In this document: one piece after another, positions 7,827 through 19,262 of the stretch | How the letters are laid out: every line of letters starts with the position of its first letter | How positions within the stretch are numbered: the first letter of the stretch is position 1 | IMG/VR virus record: IMGVR_UViG_3300010430_000523 | Span: 1-21,209 of that record | DNA length: 21,209 nt | Strand: one strand, 5' to 3' | DNA from: a virus | The notes under the pieces: generated by a model | What the model saw: the letters and a program-made list of their open reading frames with translations, nothing else | What the model was told of the DNA's origin: nothing | Database searches by the model: none | Position numbers and translations under genes: made by a program

Positions 7827-8102
7827 CTATGGTATGTATTGGTCTGCCATTAACTGCTCGACATATCCGTACAGGTCTTGCAGTGCTGCCTGACCCGCAG
7901 GCGGAAGGTCTGCTGCAGTAAGCTGAATGTTTGATCCTGTGACCAACGCACCCACGCTTCCGGTATTGCCGATGCAGTCCAGTGTTATAGTGTTTGGATC
8001 AAGAACCCAAGCAGCACCATCCCACTCAGGATTGTACAGCAGGTTTATCCTGAATAGGATCACCTCATCAATTGCGTGTGTTGGGGGTATCGGTGTTGCC
8101 AT
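7827..8102 (-). CDS. Small hypothetical protein downstream of the fiber (91 aa)
   Basis: Starts at ATG 8102, eight bases after the stop of the 2062-residue fiber gene, with AGGA upstream. It is proline- and glycine-containing (MATPIPPTHAIDEVILFRIN, then LYNPEWDGAAWVLDP) and ends in a helical segment (AGQAALQDLYGYVEQLMAD). Its position right after the fiber fits a fiber-associated or assembly protein, but no known chaperone family is recognised. Confidence 0.65.
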   Translation of the reverse strand: MATPIPPTHAIDEVILFRINLLYNPEWDGAAWVLDPNTITLDCIGNTGSVGALVTGSNIQLTAADLPPAGQAALQDLYGYVEQLMADQYIP

Positions 8103-8110
8103 AATTATTC

Positions 8111-11100
8111 CTATGCGTCATCTGTCTTATAAGTGATCGAGCCACATATCGTTATCGTACCAGTGGATATGTTCTGGAAGTTGTCGTAGTTGATTACCGT
8201 TGAGATATTTCGAGGAAACCACACGGAGATCGCAAGTTTGGTTGTATTCTGAACAGTTGCCAGTTGGTACTGACCATTCGTCTGGATGCTTGCTTGCAGG
8301 TATCGGGATATAGAACCAGTGTACTCATGCCCACTCTCTGGTTGAAAGTTCTGCGATTTGAACGGCAGACCATCAATTGCGAAGGCAGTTGATGAGGATG
8401 TGGATGTCGATCCGAACCTGACCCAGAATGAAACCGTTACCAGATTACCGATGCGAGTCCACTTCCCACCCTGCTCAAAGTAGTTGATCGTGCCTGACAC
8501 GCCACCAACATCCTTGTTGGCGATGGTCGGAGTCCATGAACCTTCGGTCTGCGTGAGGCCACCAATCGGCACACCGTTGACGTAGTAGCCATCGGATACG
8601 TTGACAGAACCTGCTCCGGTTGCGCCTGATGGTGAACCAACCTTCACCGCACCTGCATTGTCGATACGCATACGTTCAGTCGGTGTGTAATCTACGTCTG
8701 CTGTCAATCCACTATCTGTCAAGAAGGTGATAGCGCCAGATACATATCCGATACTTGCTGCGGTTGTGGCTGCGGGTCTGTGTAACCCTGCACTCCGGTA
8801 GATGTTGCTGAAGTTTATTAACTGGTTATTCGTACTCAACGCGCCCATGAACAGGCCACTATTCGTAACCGCAGCAGAGGCTGCCTCAGAGGGTACTGCC
8901 CTGAACGCACTATAGAACTTACCACCTGCGTATGCGGGTCTTGACTGAATTGCCCCATACCCCTGAAACGCAAATCCTCCTGTATCATCTACATCCAGTT
9001 TTGCGTTTGGAGAAGACGTAGCAATACCGACCCTGCCTGCGGAGTCGATAACAGCAGCAATATTAGTTGTACTGACCAAGAACTCCATCCTGTCGTCAGT
9101 CATGTTGTAACGTATCCGCCCTCTCTGTTGCCCTACTTCATCACCGAATGAAAGTGTCGATTGATGCGTTGACGCTGATATGATTGATACGGATGCGTTG
9201 CCAAACCCGCTGTTGTCAAATAGCCCTACCGTTGAACCCACAGGAGTCCACGCTCTTACCAACCCAGAACCGACTACATCAAGTTTCACTTCAGGACTCG
9301 TAGTACCAATACCGACATTGCCTGCGTTGTCGATGCGCATTCTTTCTGCTTGCGCCGTGTTGAACGACATATACTCATCGGTTGTGTGATACCGGATACG
9401 CCCACGGTTGTTGGCAGTCGGAGTCCCAAAAAGGATGCTCTGTGTATTATCAGCCGGACTCATAAACTGGATGTTCGTACCCGTACCGCTTTCAATAGAG
9501 ATTCCCGCGTTCGCATTCGGTGGAACTCCAGAATCTCCGTCAGATACGTGCAGGAGGCCTGCAGGACTCGTAGTACCTATACCGACATTGCCTGCGGAGT
9601 CGATGCGCATACGTTCGGTATTGTCAGTAGCGAACACCATCGCAGATAGTTCATAATTCCACAGGTATGCCGCAGCAGCACCCTGAGTTATCGAAAACCC
9701 ATCATTCACAGTATGACCACTACCATCGTAGGTCATCTGGAATCCAGAATTTGTTGTACCTGCAACATGGAGTCTCTGAACAGGAGCAGTAGTACCAATA
9801 CCGACATTGCCTGTCGATCCCTCAATCCGCATTTTTTCATTCGCACTTGCAGTTCCATCTGCGGATACATTAAATGTCAAACTATAGTCTGCGTCACTGT
9901 AGGCAAGCTGCATAAGCACTTGATTGACGGGAGTACCCAACCGAAACCCAATCTTCTTACCGACATCACCGAACACCCCCACATAGGCATTGGTCGCTGC
10001 CTTCCCTTCGAATGATGCTATATCCGCACTGCCCCCCGTACCGAGACCAAGGTCGGTCTCTGAAACGTGGAGTAATGCTCTTGGAACAGTCGTACCGATA
10101 CCGAAATTGGCAGTGGCAGCGAATGTAACCGGATTGGAGTGACCCGTGTTCCAGTCAAACTTCACACCGTCCCAGTACCTGCCATACGTCCAACCGTCAG
10201 CAGGGAGGTCATCATCATTGATGAAGGATGAGATATCCTGCCAGTAGGTCGCGTAGTCCACGGAAGAAGATTTCGACAGTACCTCATTCTCCAGACCACC
10301 CGTAGGCATCCTGCTCTTTGGATTGCCTATCATGGCAAAGAAGATCGGAGCGAGGTCAGGGATGACTTCCAGTGGATCACTGAGGTATATGGTGATCGGA
10401 ACTTCCCACCACGTTGTGTGATCAACTGCTGCGGAATCTACCGTGTAGTAGTAGCTGAACCCGTCACTCTCATCCACAAAACCGAGGAAGTCTCCCGCTG
10501 CCAGTTGTGATGCCCACACCCTGATGGTGTTTCCGTTGACTGTCTCGTCACTGATCGAGGCAATGGTCGCCAGTGCTGCGTCTGTGTTGTTTATCTTTGC
10601 GAAACCTGCAGTCGGATCGGTCACGGTATTATCCGTGCTGTATGTGAACTCAAACCGGATGCCACCCGCAGGTATCACCGTCAGGTTCTGCCACGTACCA
10701 TCGTCTGACAGGTATCTGCCCTGCTCCAGACCATCAGGATTTGAAACGAAACCGAATGTTCCCGCACCATCGAAACGTGCTGCTGCCTCGATTGCCACAC
10801 CGTAGCTTGTGTTCAGTATTCTGGTTGATACCCTGACCATCTCAGACGGAAGCAGGTTGAGTGGTTCGTCTATCGGTTTATCCACACCATCCAGTGAGAA
10901 GTAAGTCCCTGCTGCGGGTCTGACTTCAATAATCAGGTCAGATGTAGCACCGTCATTCCATATGAGGATGTCGGATACTGTCTCAGTGCCAGTTATATTC
11001 TGATCTGGCGGAGGGAGTTGGCAGAAGTTTGGCGGAGAGTCGAAGCGTAACTTCTCATCCCATACCGCAGTGTAGTCATCCTGCTTTATCTCCCATCTGG

Positions 11101-14100
11101 CAAGGTCATTGGACTCAGTCTGCGAGTAGACCTTTTCCCATGTGCCATTCAATCTTCCATACGTCACCGAATCCACAGGTGCTTCTGGAATGATGAACGG
11201 GAGGTTCAGGATGTCTGGGTAGTCGGTAAACTTGAACGTACCGTCATCTGACAGGTGTTGTCGTATTGGTGTCGTTGGATAGAAGAACGGAGGATTCAGG
11301 ATGTCTGGGTAGTTAGTAAATTTCCACGTACCATCGTCTGACAGGTGCTTTTTCTCTTCTGTTACAGGATCAGGAACGTAGCCAGATGTACCTGCACCCT
11401 CAAACACGTCAGGTGTGAAGTCTCCGCTACCACCTCCACTACCACCCAGAAGGATCAAGTCCCAGTCTGGTGACTGTGCCAACTGTTGGAAGTTGAAGTT
11501 GATACCGTAACCATTGTTCGGATCGACTGCCTGAGTCACACCATCGTACTGAAGGAACGAGTCGATGGCAGCAAAGACAGGATTGGTCAGGAACTTGTCT
11601 GCCTCAAACACGAACTTGGTTGGCTGAGAGACAGGAATCTCTGCGGTCATCGTTGTGACCTCATCGTCAGGGATGAGTCCTGTCGATGCGCTCAGTGAGA
11701 CGGAATACTCTACATATGTAATCTGATCTACTGGTGGAGCAAGCACCGTGTACGTTCTGAGGTTGGTCGGTATTGCAGTCTCAACAAACTGTACCGTTGA
11801 ACCTGCAATAATACCCAGTAACTCTGCGCTACGGTCAGTGGCATTCAGATCGGTCTTGTCGATCCTCAGAATCGTGTTCGCGTTATTGTGATTCCAGTTC
11901 TGTGCCGGTGGTGCGCCAACATTCTGTGCGCCTTCTGAAATCCAACCACCCGTCACCTGTGACGTGCTGCCGTAGTTATCCGACTCCAGATACAGAAGAA
12001 TCTCAGCACCCGCAGCAAATAATTTACTACCAATCCCAATCGTGTTCCACTCACCTGCTGTCAGATCAGTGTTCTCCAGTGGCAGTCGTGAGGACTGCGG
12101 TGTAGCACCGTTCGGGTCTTCGATGGAAACTATCGTGTAGTGCGTGTCAACCGTGACCTCTGGTATCCACACCTGCAGCGCACGAACCTCACCGGACTCT
12201 GTGAAGGTGACGTAATAACCAGACCTGACCTGTGATGAGTTCTGGAACGTGGCGAATGGTGGGTCTGGTGGGTATATCGGTACAACACCACCAACCTCTG
12301 TCGGGAACGGGTACTCCTCAGTTGCCACGTTAGCCACGGCAATGTAGGTGCTGTTGTTCGTCCACGTCTCAGGCGGATAGATAACCCCACCCACGTAGGT
12401 CTTCAGGTACTTGTTGCGCCAGTCTGGGATGAACTCATCAATATTCCATTGGAGTAACTGTGCATCCTCCATCGGGTTTGTGATGTTGACATCTGTGTGC
12501 TGATTGAACGGGGTGATAGGGTCTGCATCCAGACCGTATAGCTTGTGCGCCTGCTGATGATGATTGTCTACAGTGATGCCATTGAGGAGATCGTGATCCG
12601 TGATCGGTGTTCCACCACCACCAACTCCCGCACCAATACCAACCGGACTCCAGACAGATTGCCCCGCAACCCAATTCGAAGCAGTTCTACGTGCCACAAC
12701 ATGACCAAGCAATACCGCAGACTGAAGCAGGTACGGAACAACCGTGTTTGCGTCATCGGCACTGATGCTTGCCAGTGCAGCAGAGAAGTTTGCGTAGGTG
12801 TTCTGACCCCAGAGCATCCAGTAGTTGTTCGCCTGATCCAGATACAGACGTTGGATCGTTGAGGTCGTTGCAGCACCACTAATGGATTCAACTGTGCCTG
12901 CGTTGTCGTACATGGATGCGTCAATTATGCTGCCAAGTGCGCCAACATCTGTGAAGTCACGGTTGGTGTACTTGAACAGGATAGGACTGCTGAAAGGTAG
13001 TGCCTCTCTATTCGGATCGGACTTGTCGTTGTGCCAGTTCCGGTTGTTCTCCCAGATAACCCCTTCATCTATCTCAAGCTGAAATGATGCTATCTCACGT
13101 GTCGCTCCACCACTGATGATGGTGGTCGGTGAGAGTACAGAGACTGCTATCTCGCGCAGTGTTTCTGCTGCCTGATTGATGACCTTCGGGTTAGATACAT
13201 CTTCCCATACCGTGCCGTTGTGTATTGTGACACCAAGAAAGACTTCCAACCTTCCAAGAGAGGGGGTCGGTGCTTGTGAATACTGCTTCAGTTCACCTAC
13301 AAATACAGATACGCCACCACGTTGAGGCGGAACTGCGGGTACACCTGTGGATGCCATTGAGTACCAGACTATGCTACCTGCCACGGGTGGTTCTGCTGTG
13401 ATCGGTTCGTTGATCTGACCCCACTGGATACCAATAAGAACAGGGGGGTCTGATGGGTCTGTGTAACTATCAACTGCAATACCAAGACCCGCAACGATCT
13501 CAACCTCGTCAGCTGTACTTGAAATAGACCAGAACTGATCATCCCACAACGAACCCTCTGGATCGGCCTGATCCAATGCCCACGTAGCATCCGTGGAGGG
13601 ACTGCCTATATTTATCTCGCCACCACTGATCAGACCAGTAGGCCACGATTCAGCAGCAGCAGCACGATTCCTCCACATCCCAGTATCGGCATCCCACCAT
13701 AACCCCTGACCCTCTTTTAACTCGTCTGTGGTTGTATCGACATCGGTATGGCTCTCGATATCATGTAGCTGTGGGTGGTGCTGATCAGGTGTGACATCCA
13801 ACAGATCGTCATGGTAGATCGCGCCAGTGTTCGGAAGGAATCTGACCTGAACGGGTGCTTCTTGAATGCTTGGTATATCCTGATTGAGATACTGTGTTGG
13901 AACTACGGCAATCGTGAAGTATTCCTCCGCAAAGAAGCGAACAGGTATCGCTGTTGTTGTGTATATTGCAGTGGAGTTTGGAGGTTCTTGCCCGATAATG
14001 GCAATGCCTGTGCCAACCGCAAGAGCAGCGATGATAGGACTGATGTCACTACCATGCTTGGTGAAGTAGCTGATCCTGATCTCTCTGACCAGTTCGAAGT

Positions 14101-14299
14101 CATTATTATTGACACCGATATGACCAGAGACTGGTGCGCCAAACAGATCGTTCGTCCAGAGGTAGTCGGCAACAATGCCACCACCACCTGCCTCAATTAT
14201 GTTGAGACGACTATCCAGATCACAAAGGAATTCCGATGCTTGTTTTCTTACATAATGTAAGTTTGCTCGGTCAATAAGATACTTGCAGTCATCTGCCAT
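8111..14299 (-). CDS. Giant modular tail fiber (2062 aa)
   Basis: Begins ATG 14299 with GAGG upstream. In order: an N-terminal region (1-170) likely for virion attachment; HHPQLHDIESHTDVDTTTDE near 172-191; a copy of the WDDQFW motif at about 236-258; a second HH...HTDV unit at about 578-629; beta-rich modules and a GSGGGSG linker near 955; three YLSDDGTW-type units between about 985 and 1205; then from about 1400 to 1890 units of the form RMRIDxAGNVGIGTTSP; and a C-terminal module with SWTPTI and IDGLPF (about 1918-1980) shared with the 262-residue protein. The trimeric beta-structure units are typical of fibers and adhesins. Length is extreme for a podovirus fiber. No S74 autoprotease residues are seen. 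Confidence 0.85.
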   Translation of the reverse strand: MADDCKYLIDRANLHYVRKQASEFLCDLDSRLNIIEAGGGGIVADYLWTNDLFGAPVSGHIGVNNNDFELVREIRISYFTKHGSDISPIIAALAVGTGIAIIGQEPPNSTAIYTTTAIPVRFFAEEYFTIAVVPTQYLNQDIPSIQEAPVQVRFLPNTGAIYHDDLLDVTPDQHHPQLHDIESHTDVDTTTDELKEGQGLWWDADTGMWRNRAAAAESWPTGLISGGEINIGSPSTDATWALDQADPEGSLWDDQFWSISSTADEVEIVAGLGIAVDSYTDPSDPPVLIGIQWGQINEPITAEPPVAGSIVWYSMASTGVPAVPPQRGGVSVFVGELKQYSQAPTPSLGRLEVFLGVTIHNGTVWEDVSNPKVINQAAETLREIAVSVLSPTTIISGGATREIASFQLEIDEGVIWENNRNWHNDKSDPNREALPFSSPILFKYTNRDFTDVGALGSIIDASMYDNAGTVESISGAATTSTIQRLYLDQANNYWMLWGQNTYANFSAALASISADDANTVVPYLLQSAVLLGHVVARRTASNWVAGQSVWSPVGIGAGVGGGGTPITDHDLLNGITVDNHHQQAHKLYGLDADPITPFNQHTDVNITNPMEDAQLLQWNIDEFIPDWRNKYLKTYVGGVIYPPETWTNNSTYIAVANVATEEYPFPTEVGGVVPIYPPDPPFATFQNSSQVRSGYYVTFTESGEVRALQVWIPEVTVDTHYTIVSIEDPNGATPQSSRLPLENTDLTAGEWNTIGIGSKLFAAGAEILLYLESDNYGSTSQVTGGWISEGAQNVGAPPAQNWNHNNANTILRIDKTDLNATDRSAELLGIIAGSTVQFVETAIPTNLRTYTVLAPPVDQITYVEYSVSLSASTGLIPDDEVTTMTAEIPVSQPTKFVFEADKFLTNPVFAAIDSFLQYDGVTQAVDPNNGYGINFNFQQLAQSPDWDLILLGGSGGGSGDFTPDVFEGAGTSGYVPDPVTEEKKHLSDDGTWKFTNYPDILNPPFFYPTTPIRQHLSDDGTFKFTDYPDILNLPFIIPEAPVDSVTYGRLNGTWEKVYSQTESNDLARWEIKQDDYTAVWDEKLRFDSPPNFCQLPPPDQNITGTETVSDILIWNDGATSDLIIEVRPAAGTYFSLDGVDKPIDEPLNLLPSEMVRVSTRILNTSYGVAIEAAARFDGAGTFGFVSNPDGLEQGRYLSDDGTWQNLTVIPAGGIRFEFTYSTDNTVTDPTAGFAKINNTDAALATIASISDETVNGNTIRVWASQLAAGDFLGFVDESDGFSYYYTVDSAAVDHTTWWEVPITIYLSDPLEVIPDLAPIFFAMIGNPKSRMPTGGLENEVLSKSSSVDYATYWQDISSFINDDDLPADGWTYGRYWDGVKFDWNTGHSNPVTFAATANFGIGTTVPRALLHVSETDLGLGTGGSADIASFEGKAATNAYVGVFGDVGKKIGFRLGTPVNQVLMQLAYSDADYSLTFNVSADGTASANEKMRIEGSTGNVGIGTTAPVQRLHVAGTTNSGFQMTYDGSGHTVNDGFSITQGAAAAYLWNYELSAMVFATDNTERMRIDSAGNVGIGTTSPAGLLHVSDGDSGVPPNANAGISIESGTGTNIQFMSPADNTQSILFGTPTANNRGRIRYHTTDEYMSFNTAQAERMRIDNAGNVGIGTTSPEVKLDVVGSGLVRAWTPVGSTVGLFDNSGFGNASVSIISASTHQSTLSFGDEVGQQRGRIRYNMTDDRMEFLVSTTNIAAVIDSAGRVGIATSSPNAKLDVDDTGGFAFQGYGAIQSRPAYAGGKFYSAFRAVPSEAASAAVTNSGLFMGALSTNNQLINFSNIYRSAGLHRPAATTAASIGYVSGAITFLTDSGLTADVDYTPTERMRIDNAGAVKVGSPSGATGAGSVNVSDGYYVNGVPIGGLTQTEGSWTPTIANKDVGGVSGTINYFEQGGKWTRIGNLVTVSFWVRFGSTSTSSSTAFAIDGLPFKSQNFQPESGHEYTGSISRYLQASIQTNGQYQLATVQNTTKLAISVWFPRNISTVINYDNFQNISTGTITICGSITYKTDDA
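9012..10110 (-). repeat. Five-copy GNVGIGTTSP-encoding repeat in the fiber gene
   Basis: Copies at about 9012-9049, 9293-9346, 9562-9616, 9787-9834 and 10084-10110 encode (RMRID)xAGNVGIGTTSPxxxLHV with variations (AGRVGIATSSPNAKLDV, NFGIGTTVPRALLHV). The two copies at 9293 and 9562 are nearly identical in DNA over about 45 bases. The intervals are 225 to 297 bases and the intervening parts are less conserved. Confidence 0.8.
11195..11347 (-). repeat. 63-bp direct repeat, 90-bp period, in the fiber gene
   Basis: Bases 11195-11257 and 11285-11347 are highly similar, each encoding a version of HLSDDGTxKFTxYPDILNxPF. A third unit at 10691-10713 shares 23 identical bases with 11324-11346 and encodes YLSDDGTW. 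This looks like a recent 30-residue duplication in the fiber shaft. Confidence 0.8.
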
Positions 14300-14339
14300 G
14301 TTGCCTCATTGCCCTTTGTAGTTGGTATTATTGTCGGGC

Positions 14340-15128
14340 TTATAATGGATCGTCTGTAAGATATGTCATGTTGAACCCGAAGACACCAGAAGTCTGCAAG
14401 GCATCGTACATCCACGGATACTGAATATCACCGTAACCATTCAAGGCTATATTGTTTGTTCCGAAATAGCTTCTGAGATGCAGGAAGGTAGCAGAAGTAA
14501 CATTTGCGGGATTCAGTGGATCGTAATTCACCCCACCTGCAATAGGAACAATACCCTGTACAACTGCTTCTGGATTGTATTCATCAGATGCGGGTGGGTT
14601 CTCTATTCCGATACCAGAACAAAGCATACCTGCACCTGAAAGGAAGTTGGAAGCATAAGCACCAAGAGATGCTCCTGCAATTGCGGGAGAGATCGTGAAT
14701 GGGAATCCTTTGACTGCGATACCAATGTTGTCTTGTTGACTCGTTGCAGTCCACTCAACACGGGCAAAGATATTTACCAACCTGCCTGATCGGGTGTAGT
14801 AACCGAAATTATCGGGTGATGCTGCCATCGTGGAGTTGTTCGCACCAGTCACTGGATTGACCAGTTGCGGAGTCCACTGACCCGAAGTTGCAAGAGTGCC
14901 ACCCTCAAGATTGATAATCGTGTTGCCACCCATATCAAGGTCTTGACGCATGGTGTTGTAACCATCGAGATTCAGGCAGTTTTCAATGCCACCTGCAATA
15001 TCCTCATCATGAAAATCGTGTCGGGAGGCAATAATTTTGATACTTGCCTGTTGATCTTGCGCCCAAACAGTCGCGCCCGTGAACTGGTTGTTCGTCCGTA
15101 GAAAGTTACCGTCATTTTGCCAAGGCAT
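14340..15128 (-). CDS. Short tail-fiber-like protein (262 aa)
   Basis: Starts at ATG 15128, two bases after the nozzle stop. The N-terminal half contains DGYNTMRQDLDMGGNTIINL (about residues 55-74), a motif common in the attachment regions of podoviral fibers and spikes. The C-terminal half begins GQWTPQLVNPVTGANN and continues GYYTRSGRLVNIFARVEW and IAVKGFPF, matching the C-terminal module of the 2062-residue fiber. It is probably a second, shorter fiber or a fiber adaptor. No enzyme motif is seen. Confidence 0.7.
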   Translation of the reverse strand: MPWQNDGNFLRTNNQFTGATVWAQDQQASIKIIASRHDFHDEDIAGGIENCLNLDGYNTMRQDLDMGGNTIINLEGGTLATSGQWTPQLVNPVTGANNSTMAASPDNFGYYTRSGRLVNIFARVEWTATSQQDNIGIAVKGFPFTISPAIAGASLGAYASNFLSGAGMLCSGIGIENPPASDEYNPEAVVQGIVPIAGGVNYDPLNPANVTSATFLHLRSYFGTNNIALNGYGDIQYPWMYDALQTSGVFGFNMTYLTDDPL

Positions 15129-15129
15129 T

Positions 15130-16776
15130 TTATTGCGCTCCTGCTATATTGAATCTAATGCCCGTTGACCTCCAACGGACTCCTTCGTTCTTCTTTGAGA
15201 ATCTTACCATAACTGATACTGCGTATCCGAATGCCGAGACATTCTGCCAACCTTTGGTGGTAAACGGGGTCTGTATCTGCGCCCAGTAATCCTCATCCCA
15301 GTTGGATATATCCCACGTACCAATATTCTGAAAATCAAATGGTGGAGGAGGGAAGTCCTCTGGATCGTATGGGTAATTAAAGTCTGCATATCCTCTCAGG
15401 TTGATTTGCTCTGGGAATGAATGCGTTGAGATTATCTGTGCAGCAGATACTTGCTTGTGTAACCCTGATTCACCGTAGTAATTGAACGCAGGCAGTGCCG
15501 TAAAGTTTATCGGCCTATCCTCGTCATTCGTTCCTTCCATCATCCTGATGACACGACCATCATTTGTGCCACCGTATAGGCGTTTGTCGTGTACCGTCAT
15601 GCAGTTGACATCGAGGTCGGTAAATCGACACCACCTCTGCGTGACAGTATTCAGAACGTGCTGCTCAAATTTGACAGGTGTAATTGGCACGTTGAACAGG
15701 AACAGACCCTCTCTTGCGAATAGAGTTGCCTGCCACCCATACGTCCGAGTGCTATCCTGTGTTCTCAACTTGATAGCGTCAGTGATCAACCGTGAGAATG
15801 CAGGCACATCGCTGATCCTACCCTGCTGTACGATCGTACTCAGAGCAATGTAGCCATCCCTCGTCATGATAATAATGTCAGAACCGTACTTGTCTCTGCC
15901 ACGTATTGAGAGTGGTTCTGCGGTAATGTACCTGCCAACCATCTCAAAGAATCCGATAGTCTCTGGATCGTCACCCTGATAGATGATGATCTCACCCGTT
16001 GAGAACACGATAACCAGAAAGTCATCCTTGCCATCACCAGAGTCTTGCTGCGTCCAAGTGGTCATCATGACGATCTTCCCGCCACGTTGTACCACCGAAC
16101 CCATTGGGAAATACTGTAACTCACCCTGATACGATCCGGCCTGCGCGTACCAGAACCCATCGTCATCATCTCGCCAGTAGTATGCCCTTCCCTTGAACAC
16201 CTCTACGCCAATGAAGTCACCATCCAGTGGAATCTGAACATCTGGATCGTTTGGGTCTTCCTCAGTGAACGGTATATCTACCGTGGTTGTGTACGGGGTA
16301 GCATACTTCTGTGCTTGGTCTTGACCATTGCACATGATCAGCACACCCTCTTCTGCCAGACCCCTGAAGTTGATGGTCTGCCACCTGTCATTCTGGAATG
16401 TGCCTGCAGGATGCAGAAGAACGATATTATTCCATAACTTTTCGTCCCAGAATGATCCCTCATCTTGTGGGGGTATTGCAGGATTAACAGACCATGTACC
16501 ACCAAGGTCTTCTGCGTATGTCATATCCCAGATGCCACCACCGGAGGCTACAACAAGTTTGGTTTCGAGATTGGTGTTCAGTGAGGCGACAGTCTCTACG
16601 GGTAGACCAGTTCCTGTGTCGGCATATTGGAACGTGCCTTTTCTGGTATCAACCGTACCCGCACTTGGGATGAGGTTATCCAGAATGACCGCACAGTCTG
16701 GTGGCATATTGTCGAGGCTATCAAAAGCGTTCCAACCACCGATTGGAGCGTCAACTGATACTGCATTCGACTTCAT
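15130..16776 (-). CDS. Tail nozzle/stabilisation protein (548 aa)
   Basis: I chose ATG 16776 in a TAATG overlap with the adaptor gene; a GTG four codons upstream is possible. The N-terminus, APIGGWNAFDSLDNMPPDCA (about 10-29), then VILDNLIPSAGTVDTRKG, is typical of the nozzle and stabilisation proteins (T7 gp12, P22 gp10 class) that extend the tail below the adaptor. Long beta-rich segments follow, with a propeller-like layout (YAEDLGGTWS, RDGYIALSTI, RLYGGTNDGRVI). The WDExxW motif occurs twice, at about residues 92-116 and 484-499. Its place after the adaptor and before the fibers supports the call. Confidence 0.75.
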   Translation of the reverse strand: MKSNAVSVDAPIGGWNAFDSLDNMPPDCAVILDNLIPSAGTVDTRKGTFQYADTGTGLPVETVASLNTNLETKLVVASGGGIWDMTYAEDLGGTWSVNPAIPPQDEGSFWDEKLWNNIVLLHPAGTFQNDRWQTINFRGLAEEGVLIMCNGQDQAQKYATPYTTTVDIPFTEEDPNDPDVQIPLDGDFIGVEVFKGRAYYWRDDDDGFWYAQAGSYQGELQYFPMGSVVQRGGKIVMMTTWTQQDSGDGKDDFLVIVFSTGEIIIYQGDDPETIGFFEMVGRYITAEPLSIRGRDKYGSDIIIMTRDGYIALSTIVQQGRISDVPAFSRLITDAIKLRTQDSTRTYGWQATLFAREGLFLFNVPITPVKFEQHVLNTVTQRWCRFTDLDVNCMTVHDKRLYGGTNDGRVIRMMEGTNDEDRPINFTALPAFNYYGESGLHKQVSAAQIISTHSFPEQINLRGYADFNYPYDPEDFPPPPFDFQNIGTWDISNWDEDYWAQIQTPFTTKGWQNVSAFGYAVSVMVRFSKKNEGVRWRSTGIRFNIAGAQ

Positions 16777-17573
16777 TAACTGACCCACAGCTTGGTGTAT
16801 GGATCACGTCTGATACCACGCCTGACACCACCGATGGTCTGGCCTGCATTGGAACGACCAATGGCCTCATTCATCTTGACCATATAGTTAGCCATATGCT
16901 CCATGTATGAGGGCATCTGCTTGGTCTGCTGCCAGTGTGCCTGAATCCCGAGGATCAGCAGTTGGTCATCGAGTAACCACGTATCTGAGTCTGCAGTAAA
17001 GAACTCCTTCTTCACACCCTCGCTTGACCAGTAATCTTCATCCCAGAACGAACCGAGTACGTTTGCAGGAAGTGCAGGCGGGATAGACCACTCACCTTCC
17101 AGTGCCTCTTCGATTCCTATATCGTATTCACTGCGGATTGGATACTTGGTAACGTATTCGTATGAGAATCCACCACCACCGAATGGCTCAATGACCTCGA
17201 TGGTATTACCGTAGAATCTCGCACGGATCGTTCCGCCAGAGGTCAGTGAACTGAACTTGTACTGATACCACTCCTGCTCACTGACAGGCACATCAACCTT
17301 TCTTGAACCGTCAGTCTCCCATGCTGAATCAGGGACGTAACTCTGGTAGTCACTCGGCAGGTCGTATATATTCTGACCCTCGATAAGATTGATCACACCT
17401 ACTTCGCGTAACTCACTCCAATCATAGAAATTGAAGATTTCATAAGCCACACGATTCGCAATGGCAATCATCTGTTTGTCATCGGGATCACTCGAACCTG
17501 TGAATGAATCCCTCTCAAGAAACCCTGACTGAGTCAGTACGTTATTCAGAATACTCTTGAGTGCCAGTGACAT
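16776..17573 (-). CDS. Head-to-tail adaptor (P22 gp4/T7 gp11-type, 265 aa)
   Basis: Starts at ATG 17573 with GAGAGGTAATC upstream. The N-terminus is helical (SLALKSILNNVLTQSGFLE, then DDKQMIAIANRVAYEIFNFYDWSELRE, part), followed by GQNIYDLPSDYQSYVPD and a beta region, then a C-terminal helical bundle (LLILGIQAHWQQTKQMPSYM; first part) with a GGVRRGIRRDPYTKLWV tail. That is the architecture of portal-bound adaptor proteins. A WDEDYW motif lies at about residues 158-183 in the sequence GEWSIPPALPANVLGSFWDE. The gene is coupled to the nozzle gene. Function rests on position and layout. Confidence 0.7.
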   Translation of the reverse strand: MSLALKSILNNVLTQSGFLERDSFTGSSDPDDKQMIAIANRVAYEIFNFYDWSELREVGVINLIEGQNIYDLPSDYQSYVPDSAWETDGSRKVDVPVSEQEWYQYKFSSLTSGGTIRARFYGNTIEVIEPFGGGGFSYEYVTKYPIRSEYDIGIEEALEGEWSIPPALPANVLGSFWDEDYWSSEGVKKEFFTADSDTWLLDDQLLILGIQAHWQQTKQMPSYMEHMANYMVKMNEAIGRSNAGQTIGGVRRGIRRDPYTKLWVS

Positions 17574-17583
17574 GATTACCTCT

Positions 17584-18231
17584 CTACTCGAAGCTGATGC
17601 TCCAGTTGTCGCTTACTTTTGGTTGATGACCGTTGAGTCGTCCACCCGTTGGTAACCCTTCGGCAACTTCTCTTTCTTCGCGTCCGAGACTGGGGGGAAC
17701 GATGCATTGTCCGACATCATCGCTGTCGATCCGTCCACGCTCCGCAAGCACATTTTCGGTTTGGATACTTTCTTCGTGTTTGATTTCTTCGTTGCCATCT
17801 TGCTGCTCCATTAATACAGATTGTAATGTTTTTGCCATTTCCCACACTTTGTTCAAGTGTACTGGAACTATGGTTACCTCTGCCAGACGCTCAATCGTTC
17901 CAAGCCTCATGTCGATCAACTCCTGCAGTTCGGCAGGTGATATGTTCGGAATGATACCAACACTTGGTGAGGTTTCTTTCTGACCCTCAAGATACAGTTT
18001 GTATTCCCGAGGATAATTCTTGATGTGGTGAGGTTGTGCTTTCTCAGCGACCCAATCAGTTACACCTACCTGTCTTTCGTTGATATAGGTAAATGTCGAA
18101 TAAATGCGCCTTCCTGCTTTCTTCGACTCTGATACATTCAGTCTGGCTTTATCATAGAAGACTACGGTTGGTTTTTGTGCTTTACCAACAACCAGTTCTT
18201 CAAGTTCGTGTTGAGATAGTTCGCCTGCCAT
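17584..18231 (-). CDS. Hypothetical virion-operon protein (215 aa)
   Basis: ATG 18231 is chosen because GGAG lies six bases upstream; the TTG one codon before has no better site. The N-terminal 140 residues are well-formed: LSQHELEELVVGKAQKPTVV, a basic segment, VGIIPNISPAELQELIDMRLG (part), and a helix VHLNKVWEMAKTLQSVLMEQQ. The last 70 residues are charged and low in hydrophobics, and this is where a second frame is open (17613-17798). It lies between capsid and adaptor genes. No family recognised; a head-completion or scaffold-related role is possible. Confidence 0.65.
   Translation of the reverse strand: MAGELSQHELEELVVGKAQKPTVVFYDKARLNVSESKKAGRRIYSTFTYINERQVGVTDWVAEKAQPHHIKNYPREYKLYLEGQKETSPSVGIIPNISPAELQELIDMRLGTIERLAEVTIVPVHLNKVWEMAKTLQSVLMEQQDGNEEIKHEESIQTENVLAERGRIDSDDVGQCIVPPSLGREEREVAEGLPTGGRLNGHQPKVSDNWSISFE
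17613..17798 (-). CDS. Nested out-of-frame basic protein (61 aa)
   Basis: An ATG at 17798 preceded by GGAG with seven-base spacing opens a 61-codon frame inside the 3' third of the 215-aa gene, in a different frame. The product is Lys/Ser/Thr-rich (MATKKSNTKKVSKPKMCLRS at the start, KKEKLPKGYQRVDDSTV near the end) and reads like a natural small basic protein, arguably more so than the overlapping tail of the longer gene. It may be a real nested gene, or it may replace the tail of the longer protein. The stop lies 40 bases before the adaptor start. Confidence 0.45.
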   Translation of the reverse strand: MATKKSNTKKVSKPKMCLRSVDGSTAMMSDNASFPPVSDAKKEKLPKGYQRVDDSTVINQK

Positions 18232-18248
18232 CAAGTTCTCCGTAAATA

Positions 18249-18287: not shown

Positions 18288-19262
18288 TTACGCAACATCA
18301 GATACAAGTACACCCTGTAAGAAACGTGCATTCGTTGTCAGGTTACCCATCGTCCAGTTGGGGATCACATCGTAATCGGCATTCTCGATCTTACGATAAT
18401 CCTCAGTGGTGAACCAACGCTCTGGTGCTTTACGGAAGCGCAGGAAGTCTGTATTCAAGAAATACATACGTCCTTCACCCGCAGTGGTCAGATCGGTAGC
18501 GCACTGTGCATCATACACAACAGGCTTGCCGAGGAACTCCAAGGTACGGAATCCGGCATCTGCCATCTTCGCATTGGTGAACCGTGCATTTTCCTGCAGG
18601 CTTTCCCAGTATGCGGTGAAGTAGTTACCGTTTGCGACCATCAGGTTCGTCTGATCAGTGCCACGAGTTGTAGCCAGAGACATCGCATTCATACGACTCT
18701 GGATCGTTGCAGCAGTAATGGCAGTGGTTGCCACGTCTGTCTGGTTCTGCCACCAAGTCTGAACAGCAGCATCGATTCCACCAACAACACCAGTGGAAGG
18801 ATCATCTGCAACCAGAAGGCGCAGTCCACCAAACTCTTTGCCACCTTCACCAGAACCATTGGAATACAAAGACAAACCAGTCTTGTTCCGAAGTCCGGCA
18901 ATAAGGGCATCGATACGTGCTTCAGCGAGTGACGTAACCTGCCACTTCTCGCGGTTCATGATCTTCTCACGTCCAGAGATGAACGCAAAACCACCAAGTT
19001 GTTTCCACTGGTAAACAGCAGCATCACATACTTCCTGAGAAGTATCGACAGAGAAGGTTTCGAAGCCATCATAGAACTTCGTTGCCAGTTCGTTGTAGAG
19101 CAGGTTCTCCGTGAGTTCACGACCACCACCTGCATTTTTAATATTGCCAGTGTCTTCGAGAGTTCTCAGGAGTGCATTGTGGTTGGTGACGTTATCCGCT
19201 ACAGGCATTTCCTGATTCATCAGGGTGGTTGCCACCAACTCAGTAAGGTTTACAGTTGCCAT
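18288..19262 (-). CDS. Major capsid protein (324 aa)
   Basis: Starts at ATG 19262 with AAAGGAAA upstream. The sequence follows a capsid family known from Bordetella BPP-1-type podoviruses: LVATTLMNQEMPVADNVTNHNALL (part of an N-terminal helix), GGGRELTENLLYNEL, VYQWKQLGGFAFISGREKIM (around residues 83-102), LYSNGSGEGGKEFGGLRLLV (about 132-151), then DPSTGVVGGID. The C-terminal part has RFRKAPERWF. An HK97-like fold is expected from the family. It follows the scaffold gene, as expected. Confidence 0.85.
   Translation of the reverse strand: MATVNLTELVATTLMNQEMPVADNVTNHNALLRTLEDTGNIKNAGGGRELTENLLYNELATKFYDGFETFSVDTSQEVCDAAVYQWKQLGGFAFISGREKIMNREKWQVTSLAEARIDALIAGLRNKTGLSLYSNGSGEGGKEFGGLRLLVADDPSTGVVGGIDAAVQTWWQNQTDVATTAITAATIQSRMNAMSLATTRGTDQTNLMVANGNYFTAYWESLQENARFTNAKMADAGFRTLEFLGKPVVYDAQCATDLTTAGEGRMYFLNTDFLRFRKAPERWFTTEDYRKIENADYDVIPNWTMGNLTTNARFLQGVLVSDVA

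Follow-up and report, generated by a model that had tools for sequence, protein, structure and literature searches.

A triple-tryptophan segment recurring in three tail proteins of an uncultivated podovirus may be a portable dock for trimeric fibres

The evolution of phage tails leaves open how receptor-binding fibres are gained, moved and multiplied. The case described here is a partial record of an uncultivated virus (IMG/VR IMGVR_UViG_3300010430_000523, positions 1 to 21,209; this whole 21.2-kb stretch is referred to here as the window), the minus strand of which carries a podovirus tail module. A short tryptophan-rich segment occurs four times in this module, in the adaptor, the nozzle (twice) and a giant tail fibre, proteins that are otherwise unrelated, as the first-pass annotation rightly held. 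Where did these copies come from, and what might they do?

All genes of the module lie on the minus strand. Family searches identify the major capsid protein (18288–19262), which is separated from the adaptor by a gene for a 216-amino-acid protein (17584–18234) that matched nothing in PHROGs or Pfam. This small protein keeps its position in close relatives, at 33–45% identity. The head-to-tail adaptor (16776–17573; 265 amino acids) matches phrog_6013 (E = 7e-29) and Pfam SU10_adaptor (28 bits; cut-off, 27), and its predicted model matches the adaptors of phages SU10 and Pa223. The nozzle (15130–16788; 552 amino acids) belongs to phrog_5107 by a match across the whole protein (E = 1.6e-78, residues 9–533). 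Its predicted model (mean pLDDT 84) consists of a β-propeller and a platform and is closest to the nozzles of Pa223 (Z score, 28), SU10 (gp17; 26–27), VP1 and P22 (gp10; 24). The family phrog_5107 is named ‘amidase’, a name also given in RefSeq records NC_020856, NC_020858, NC_027299 and NC_003085; as the predicted fold is that of a propeller nozzle, this is probably an annotation error that has since spread. Next come a candidate short tail fibre (14340–15128; 262 amino acids), with the conserved N terminus MPWQ..F.R...VW.QD..AsIKIIAsRHD.HD.DiA, and the giant tail fibre (8111–14299; 2,062 amino acids), which matches PHROGs tail-fibre families at residues 1386–1731 and has an N terminus 34% identical to that of the fibre at a related locus, L017. 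Judged from the genes alone, which are intact and overlap normally, there is no sign of an assembly artefact.

The four WD[ED]xxW motifs were found where the first-pass annotation had placed them, all on the minus strand: WDDQFW in the giant fibre (13529–13546), WDEDYW towards the nozzle C terminus (15283–15300; nozzle C), WDEKLW towards the nozzle N terminus (16432–16449; nozzle N) and WDEDYW in the adaptor (17028–17045). Every copy has exactly three tryptophans, a feature absent from the pattern as originally described: residues 162, 177 and 182 in the adaptor, 99, 114 and 119 in nozzle N, 492, 497 and 502 in nozzle C, and 240, 252 and 257 in the fibre. The spacing between them is 15 + 5 in the adaptor and nozzle N, 12 + 5 in the fibre and 5 + 5 in nozzle C.

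In the nozzle and adaptor models, the segments sit in stretches that separate predicted strands or helices. The adaptor insert spans 35 residues (148–182; 17028–17132, minus strand; SEYDIGIEEALEGEWSIPPALPANVLGSFWDEDYW) and appears to be a copy of a long form of the loop that is described below. The 27-residue nozzle N insert (residues about 95–121; 16426–16506, minus strand; LGGTWSVNPAIPPQDEGSFWDEKLWNN) lies between predicted strands 85–91 and 121–126, in a loop that the model places at the first propeller strands, with pLDDT below 50 over residues 96–119. Nozzle C has a short form (15283–15318, minus strand; TWDISNWDEDYW) between predicted strands 461–468 and 515–521 of the C-terminal platform, where model confidence is low on either side (under 50 at 478–491 and 504–508). 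The giant-fibre insert comprises 28 residues (238–265; 13505–13588, minus strand; ATWALDQADPEGSLWDDQFWSISSTADE). The alignment of the adaptor copy with that of nozzle N is gap-free, as had been claimed (41% identity over 37 amino acids); the reported sharing of 18 of 19 bases (95%) between the adaptor and nozzle C copies is also correct, but concerns the WDEDYW stretch only.

We aligned the nozzle with those of isolated-phage relatives (Mx8 and phages of Rhizobium, Sulfitobacter, Stenotrophomonas, Bradyrhizobium and others) and of viral contigs. Few positions in this family are nearly invariant, tryptophans 492, 497 and 502 being among them, and most of some 50 nozzles contain WDxxxWDxxxW or WGxxWGxxWG; repeats such as WDVADWDLADW and WGSPWGSPWG are threefold by sequence. 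To judge from this alignment, the nozzle C copy is the ancestral one. Full-length nozzles that lack a close tryptophan triple occur at L014, L038, L041/L044 and L051; incomplete records, L031 among them, allow no judgement in this respect. The fibres of L014, L038, L041 and L051 may dock in another way, which would make these nozzles helpful as a negative set.

Six sister phages (L017, L018/L026, L021, L022, L023 and L062), the capsid proteins of which are 71–78% identical to that of the window where measured, carry a long form at nozzle C, TWSxxPxxPP...GSFWDEDYW (for example, ATWSVDPATPPQEVGSFWDEDYWSREGV); L028 is of intermediate length. In a nozzle tree from which the motif columns were left out, the closest partner of the window is L022 (support, 87/89); the long form is present in L022 and in most members of the surrounding clade. 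With this moderate tree support, the short nozzle C form of the window may be a secondary shortening. The adaptor gene of L017 (L017:7863–8580) is split over two frames, with open reading frames at 7863 and 8044, reflecting either a frameshift or a sequencing error.

The other three copies have no counterpart at the same sites in relatives. The adaptor segment faces a clean 35-residue gap in the adaptors of every close relative, the nozzle N segment a gap of 21–27 residues in sister nozzles that are 54–62% identical, and the fibre segment a gap of 28–30 residues in the fibres of L058 and L059 (47–48% identical over 470–550 amino acids). Across 51 related loci, no copy occurs anywhere but at the nozzle C terminus, and the further records searched gave the same result; two genome-collection relatives that we examined lack an insert, and the six sisters have the long form at nozzle C only.

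Different structural contexts together with absence from close relatives had been named in advance as findings that would count against a shared motif, and for the adaptor, nozzle N and fibre copies such absence is what we found; their relationship to the nozzle C termini of sister phages points the other way. We built a search profile solely from five sister-phage nozzle C termini and used 200 shuffled window proteomes as a control. This profile recovers the adaptor copy at 46.8 bits (E = 1e-14), nozzle N at 40.9 bits (E = 1e-12), the fibre copy at 14.8 bits (E = 1e-4) and the short nozzle C form at 10.3 bits, all above the best score in the 200 shuffles (8.7 bits). Within the window, which is a partial record, it finds the adaptor, nozzle and fibre only. 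The fibre segment as the sole query also matches nozzle C of L017 (E = 0.003). These matches argue for homology of the adaptor, nozzle N and fibre segments with the sisters' long nozzle C form, the case for the fibre copy being weak by sequence alone (14.8 bits). Such homology indicates that the copies were gained and are not a chance resemblance, and the proposal of a spreading insert is supported in that every copy except nozzle C is a clean insertion related to the long nozzle C form.

Tryptophan-rich loops could also have arisen independently and come to look alike through a common WD turn. This would best suit the low-scoring fibre copy, as short loops converge readily, but even there it is disfavoured by the clean insertion and the three tryptophans. 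The copies in the adaptor and nozzle N have the length, proline pattern and GSFWDE of the long nozzle C forms, with matches at 40–47 bits that convergence does not explain, and 8-mers of this kind are very rare: when 2.9 million viral contigs were scanned with the pattern of the 8-residue core, 14 stretches matched. The five confirmed ones are all nozzle C termini of the clade of the window, and nine are unconfirmed as relatives. We therefore give convergence very little credence. Among isolated-phage records, the module gave two chance-level matches only (E = 4 and 9) and a search with the fibre segment gave none. Matches of the module profile to a glycoside hydrolase and to gelsolin are weak and look like chance.

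Although the adaptor and nozzle N copies are of equal length, their DNA is only 54% identical over 27 codons, so the match of 18 of 19 bases is no evidence of recent copying and we reject a recent duplication. Nozzle C of L017 is closer in DNA to each of them (62% identity to the adaptor copy and 59% to the nozzle N copy) than they are to one another, which suggests separate, old derivations from nozzle-C-like donors, with neither copy made from the other.

A series of in-frame insertions of about 80–105 bases in unrelated genes of one genome also recalls the palindromic elements of Rickettsia, which are short coding inserts repeated in frame in unrelated genes (PMC10969869). A selfish element of this type would jump into genes and be tolerated as a soluble loop. 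However, the inserts have neither a palindrome nor another mobile-element signature (folding z-scores of 1.41, 0.08 and 0.66, with no hairpin), and the DNA identity of 54% between copies is low for such an element. Every copy lies in a tail gene with its three tryptophans kept, the source is a conserved and evidently functional loop, and the profile search of the window, a partial record, met no copies in non-structural genes. Given the lack of both recent DNA identity and a palindrome, the copies appear to be old and not a palindromic mobile element, and we regard the selfish reading as highly improbable. Recombination between diverged phages or relatives, together with selection, is the most likely means of copying.

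The first-pass annotation knew of no named motif that fits, a statement that needs some correction, as there is a counterpart of solved structure. In the nozzle gp17 of phage SU10, a fibre-dock loop (IWSDFQEITWDDPSIKELVW) presents Trp839, Trp847 and Trp857 as a star of quasi-threefold symmetry (PMC9509320; PDB 7z47), and each of these tryptophans contacts Ile24 of one chain of a trimeric short fibre (PMC9509320). The two systems share a nozzle of the same fold and a loop with three tryptophans (W-S..., W-D..., W), and in SU10 the docked fibre is a trimer. The likeness of fold to gp17 concerns only the protein with the two nozzle copies, the remaining two being carried by the adaptor and the fibre. 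Internally, the window-type motif is a threefold repeat of near-equal W[D/G]xxx steps, the form that would be expected of a socket for a trimer. Moreover, in the clade of the window the nozzle gene is directly followed by one whose product has a conserved N terminus of fibre type, and we propose the 262-amino-acid protein (14340–15128), the one short-fibre candidate in the partial record, as the natural partner of the docks. Farther out in the family, proteins with a related N terminus turned up at some loci but not at others, and the co-occurrence therefore lends support without serving as a test.

Taken together, the SU10 analogy, the threefold repeat and the position of the fibre gene make it most likely, with a probability of about 0.62, that the segment is a portable fibre-dock loop, short and at the surface, in which the three tryptophans would make up a star of pseudo-threefold symmetry and each would grip a single chain at the N terminus of a trimeric fibre. 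We propose that the dock loop resided ancestrally in a hairpin of the nozzle C-terminal platform, that it was lengthened in the clade of the window to the long form of about 27–30 residues, and that, in the lineage of the window, loops of the adaptor, the nozzle propeller and the giant fibre each received a long-form copy in frame. The short fibre encoded at 14340–15128 would thereby have additional or displaced docks: up to 12 on the adaptor ring (12 chains), 6 on the propellers (6 nozzle chains) and 3 per giant fibre, where a copy would lead to fibre-on-fibre branching.

The window also departs from SU10. Each SU10 nozzle chain carries a single dock, at the edge of propeller blade 1, with tryptophan spacings of 8 and 10, whereas in the window the apparently ancestral copy is in the platform, spacings are 5 + 5 or 15 + 5, and extra copies occur in the adaptor, propeller and giant fibre. 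The SU10 loop is about 150 residues from the C terminus and the platform loop of the window about 50. The nozzle model has its best structural match in Pa223, and LUZ24, probably a relative of Pa223, has a triple-tryptophan loop in its nozzle gp56 (L061:19297–20838; LWDDDPNPWDTDTSVW; SNLWDDDPNPWDTDTSVWGEG). As in the window, the LUZ24 triple includes WD pairs and lies beside a short fibre gene; it differs in being a single copy, apparently before the platform, in a loop known here by sequence. The N terminus of the LUZ24 fibre gp57 (SDLKSFGDDHLRLIKSAIKNTFPN) resembles SU10 gp16. Profile and sequence alignments of the nozzle family to the SU10 and LUZ24 nozzles gave no significant score, and the placement of their loops follows the SU10 paper and direct inspection of the LUZ24 sequence. 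On that basis both loops seem to be in another hairpin and may be analogous, rather than homologous, to the platform loop. A sequence search found no solved structure with the window-type platform motif.

The first-pass annotation had suggested a docking motif that joins successive tail components. The SU10 loop favours docking as such, but the likely partner is a trimeric fibre and not the next ring. Adaptor, nozzle and fibre do adjoin in podovirus tails (PMC6702177, PMC9509320), and aromatic loops are capable of packing together, so that copies could in principle pair across the interfaces between these components. However, more than 40 relatives encode the same adaptor–nozzle pair with an adaptor that lacks the motif, and in T7 and SU10 the contact between the two is made by the nozzle platform and the adaptor helix bundle. 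With the same rings encoded in relatives that have no inserts, docking of ring to ring is unlikely.

Exposed tryptophan-rich loops are often sugar-binding, and the segment might instead bind the host surface or its carbohydrates, with more copies raising avidity. Its presence in a fibre, the receptor-binding part of the tail, would agree with this. The adaptor and platform loops, however, are far from the tail tip, and the motif is conserved across phages of Myxococcus, Rhizobium, Sulfitobacter and Stenotrophomonas, unlike a host-binding site; a role in host binding is very unlikely. If the fibre-dock reading is true, it explains why WDxxxWDxxxW is nearly invariant in a nozzle family of about 20–30% identity, and it gives work on virion assembly a simple part that can be tested.

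More tentatively, and at somewhat less than even odds, the triple-tryptophan loop may be a self-sufficient docking cassette that can be grafted onto any exposed loop of any tail protein, allowing one trimeric fibre to be mounted at several tiers (the adaptor ring, the propellers and along the giant fibre) and fibres to branch by means of fewer than 35 residues. The branching systems described so far rely on larger folded domains. In the branched receptor-binding proteins of the G7C, CBA120 and KP32 viruses, T4gp10-like domains act within one fibre as a docking module that carries a second fibre (PMC6872550); these are folded domains, in contrast to the 28-residue three-tryptophan loop of the window. 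Sequence searches of the giant fibre gave no Pfam match and no T4gp10-like domain. We found no description of such a spread of a dock loop in the literature searched, in which structural papers are sparsely covered. If a loop of about 30 residues suffices as a fibre socket, such sockets could be searched for by sequence across podoviruses.

The giant fibre has other repeats. A near-repeat, HLSDDGT[WF]KFT[ND]YPDILN, occurs at residues 985–1002 and 1015–1032 (window positions 11204–11347), with a related RYLSDDGTW at residue 1195, and residues 1497–1880 (8660–9811) form a repetitive fibre region with repeated ERMRID and GNVGIGTT.P units.
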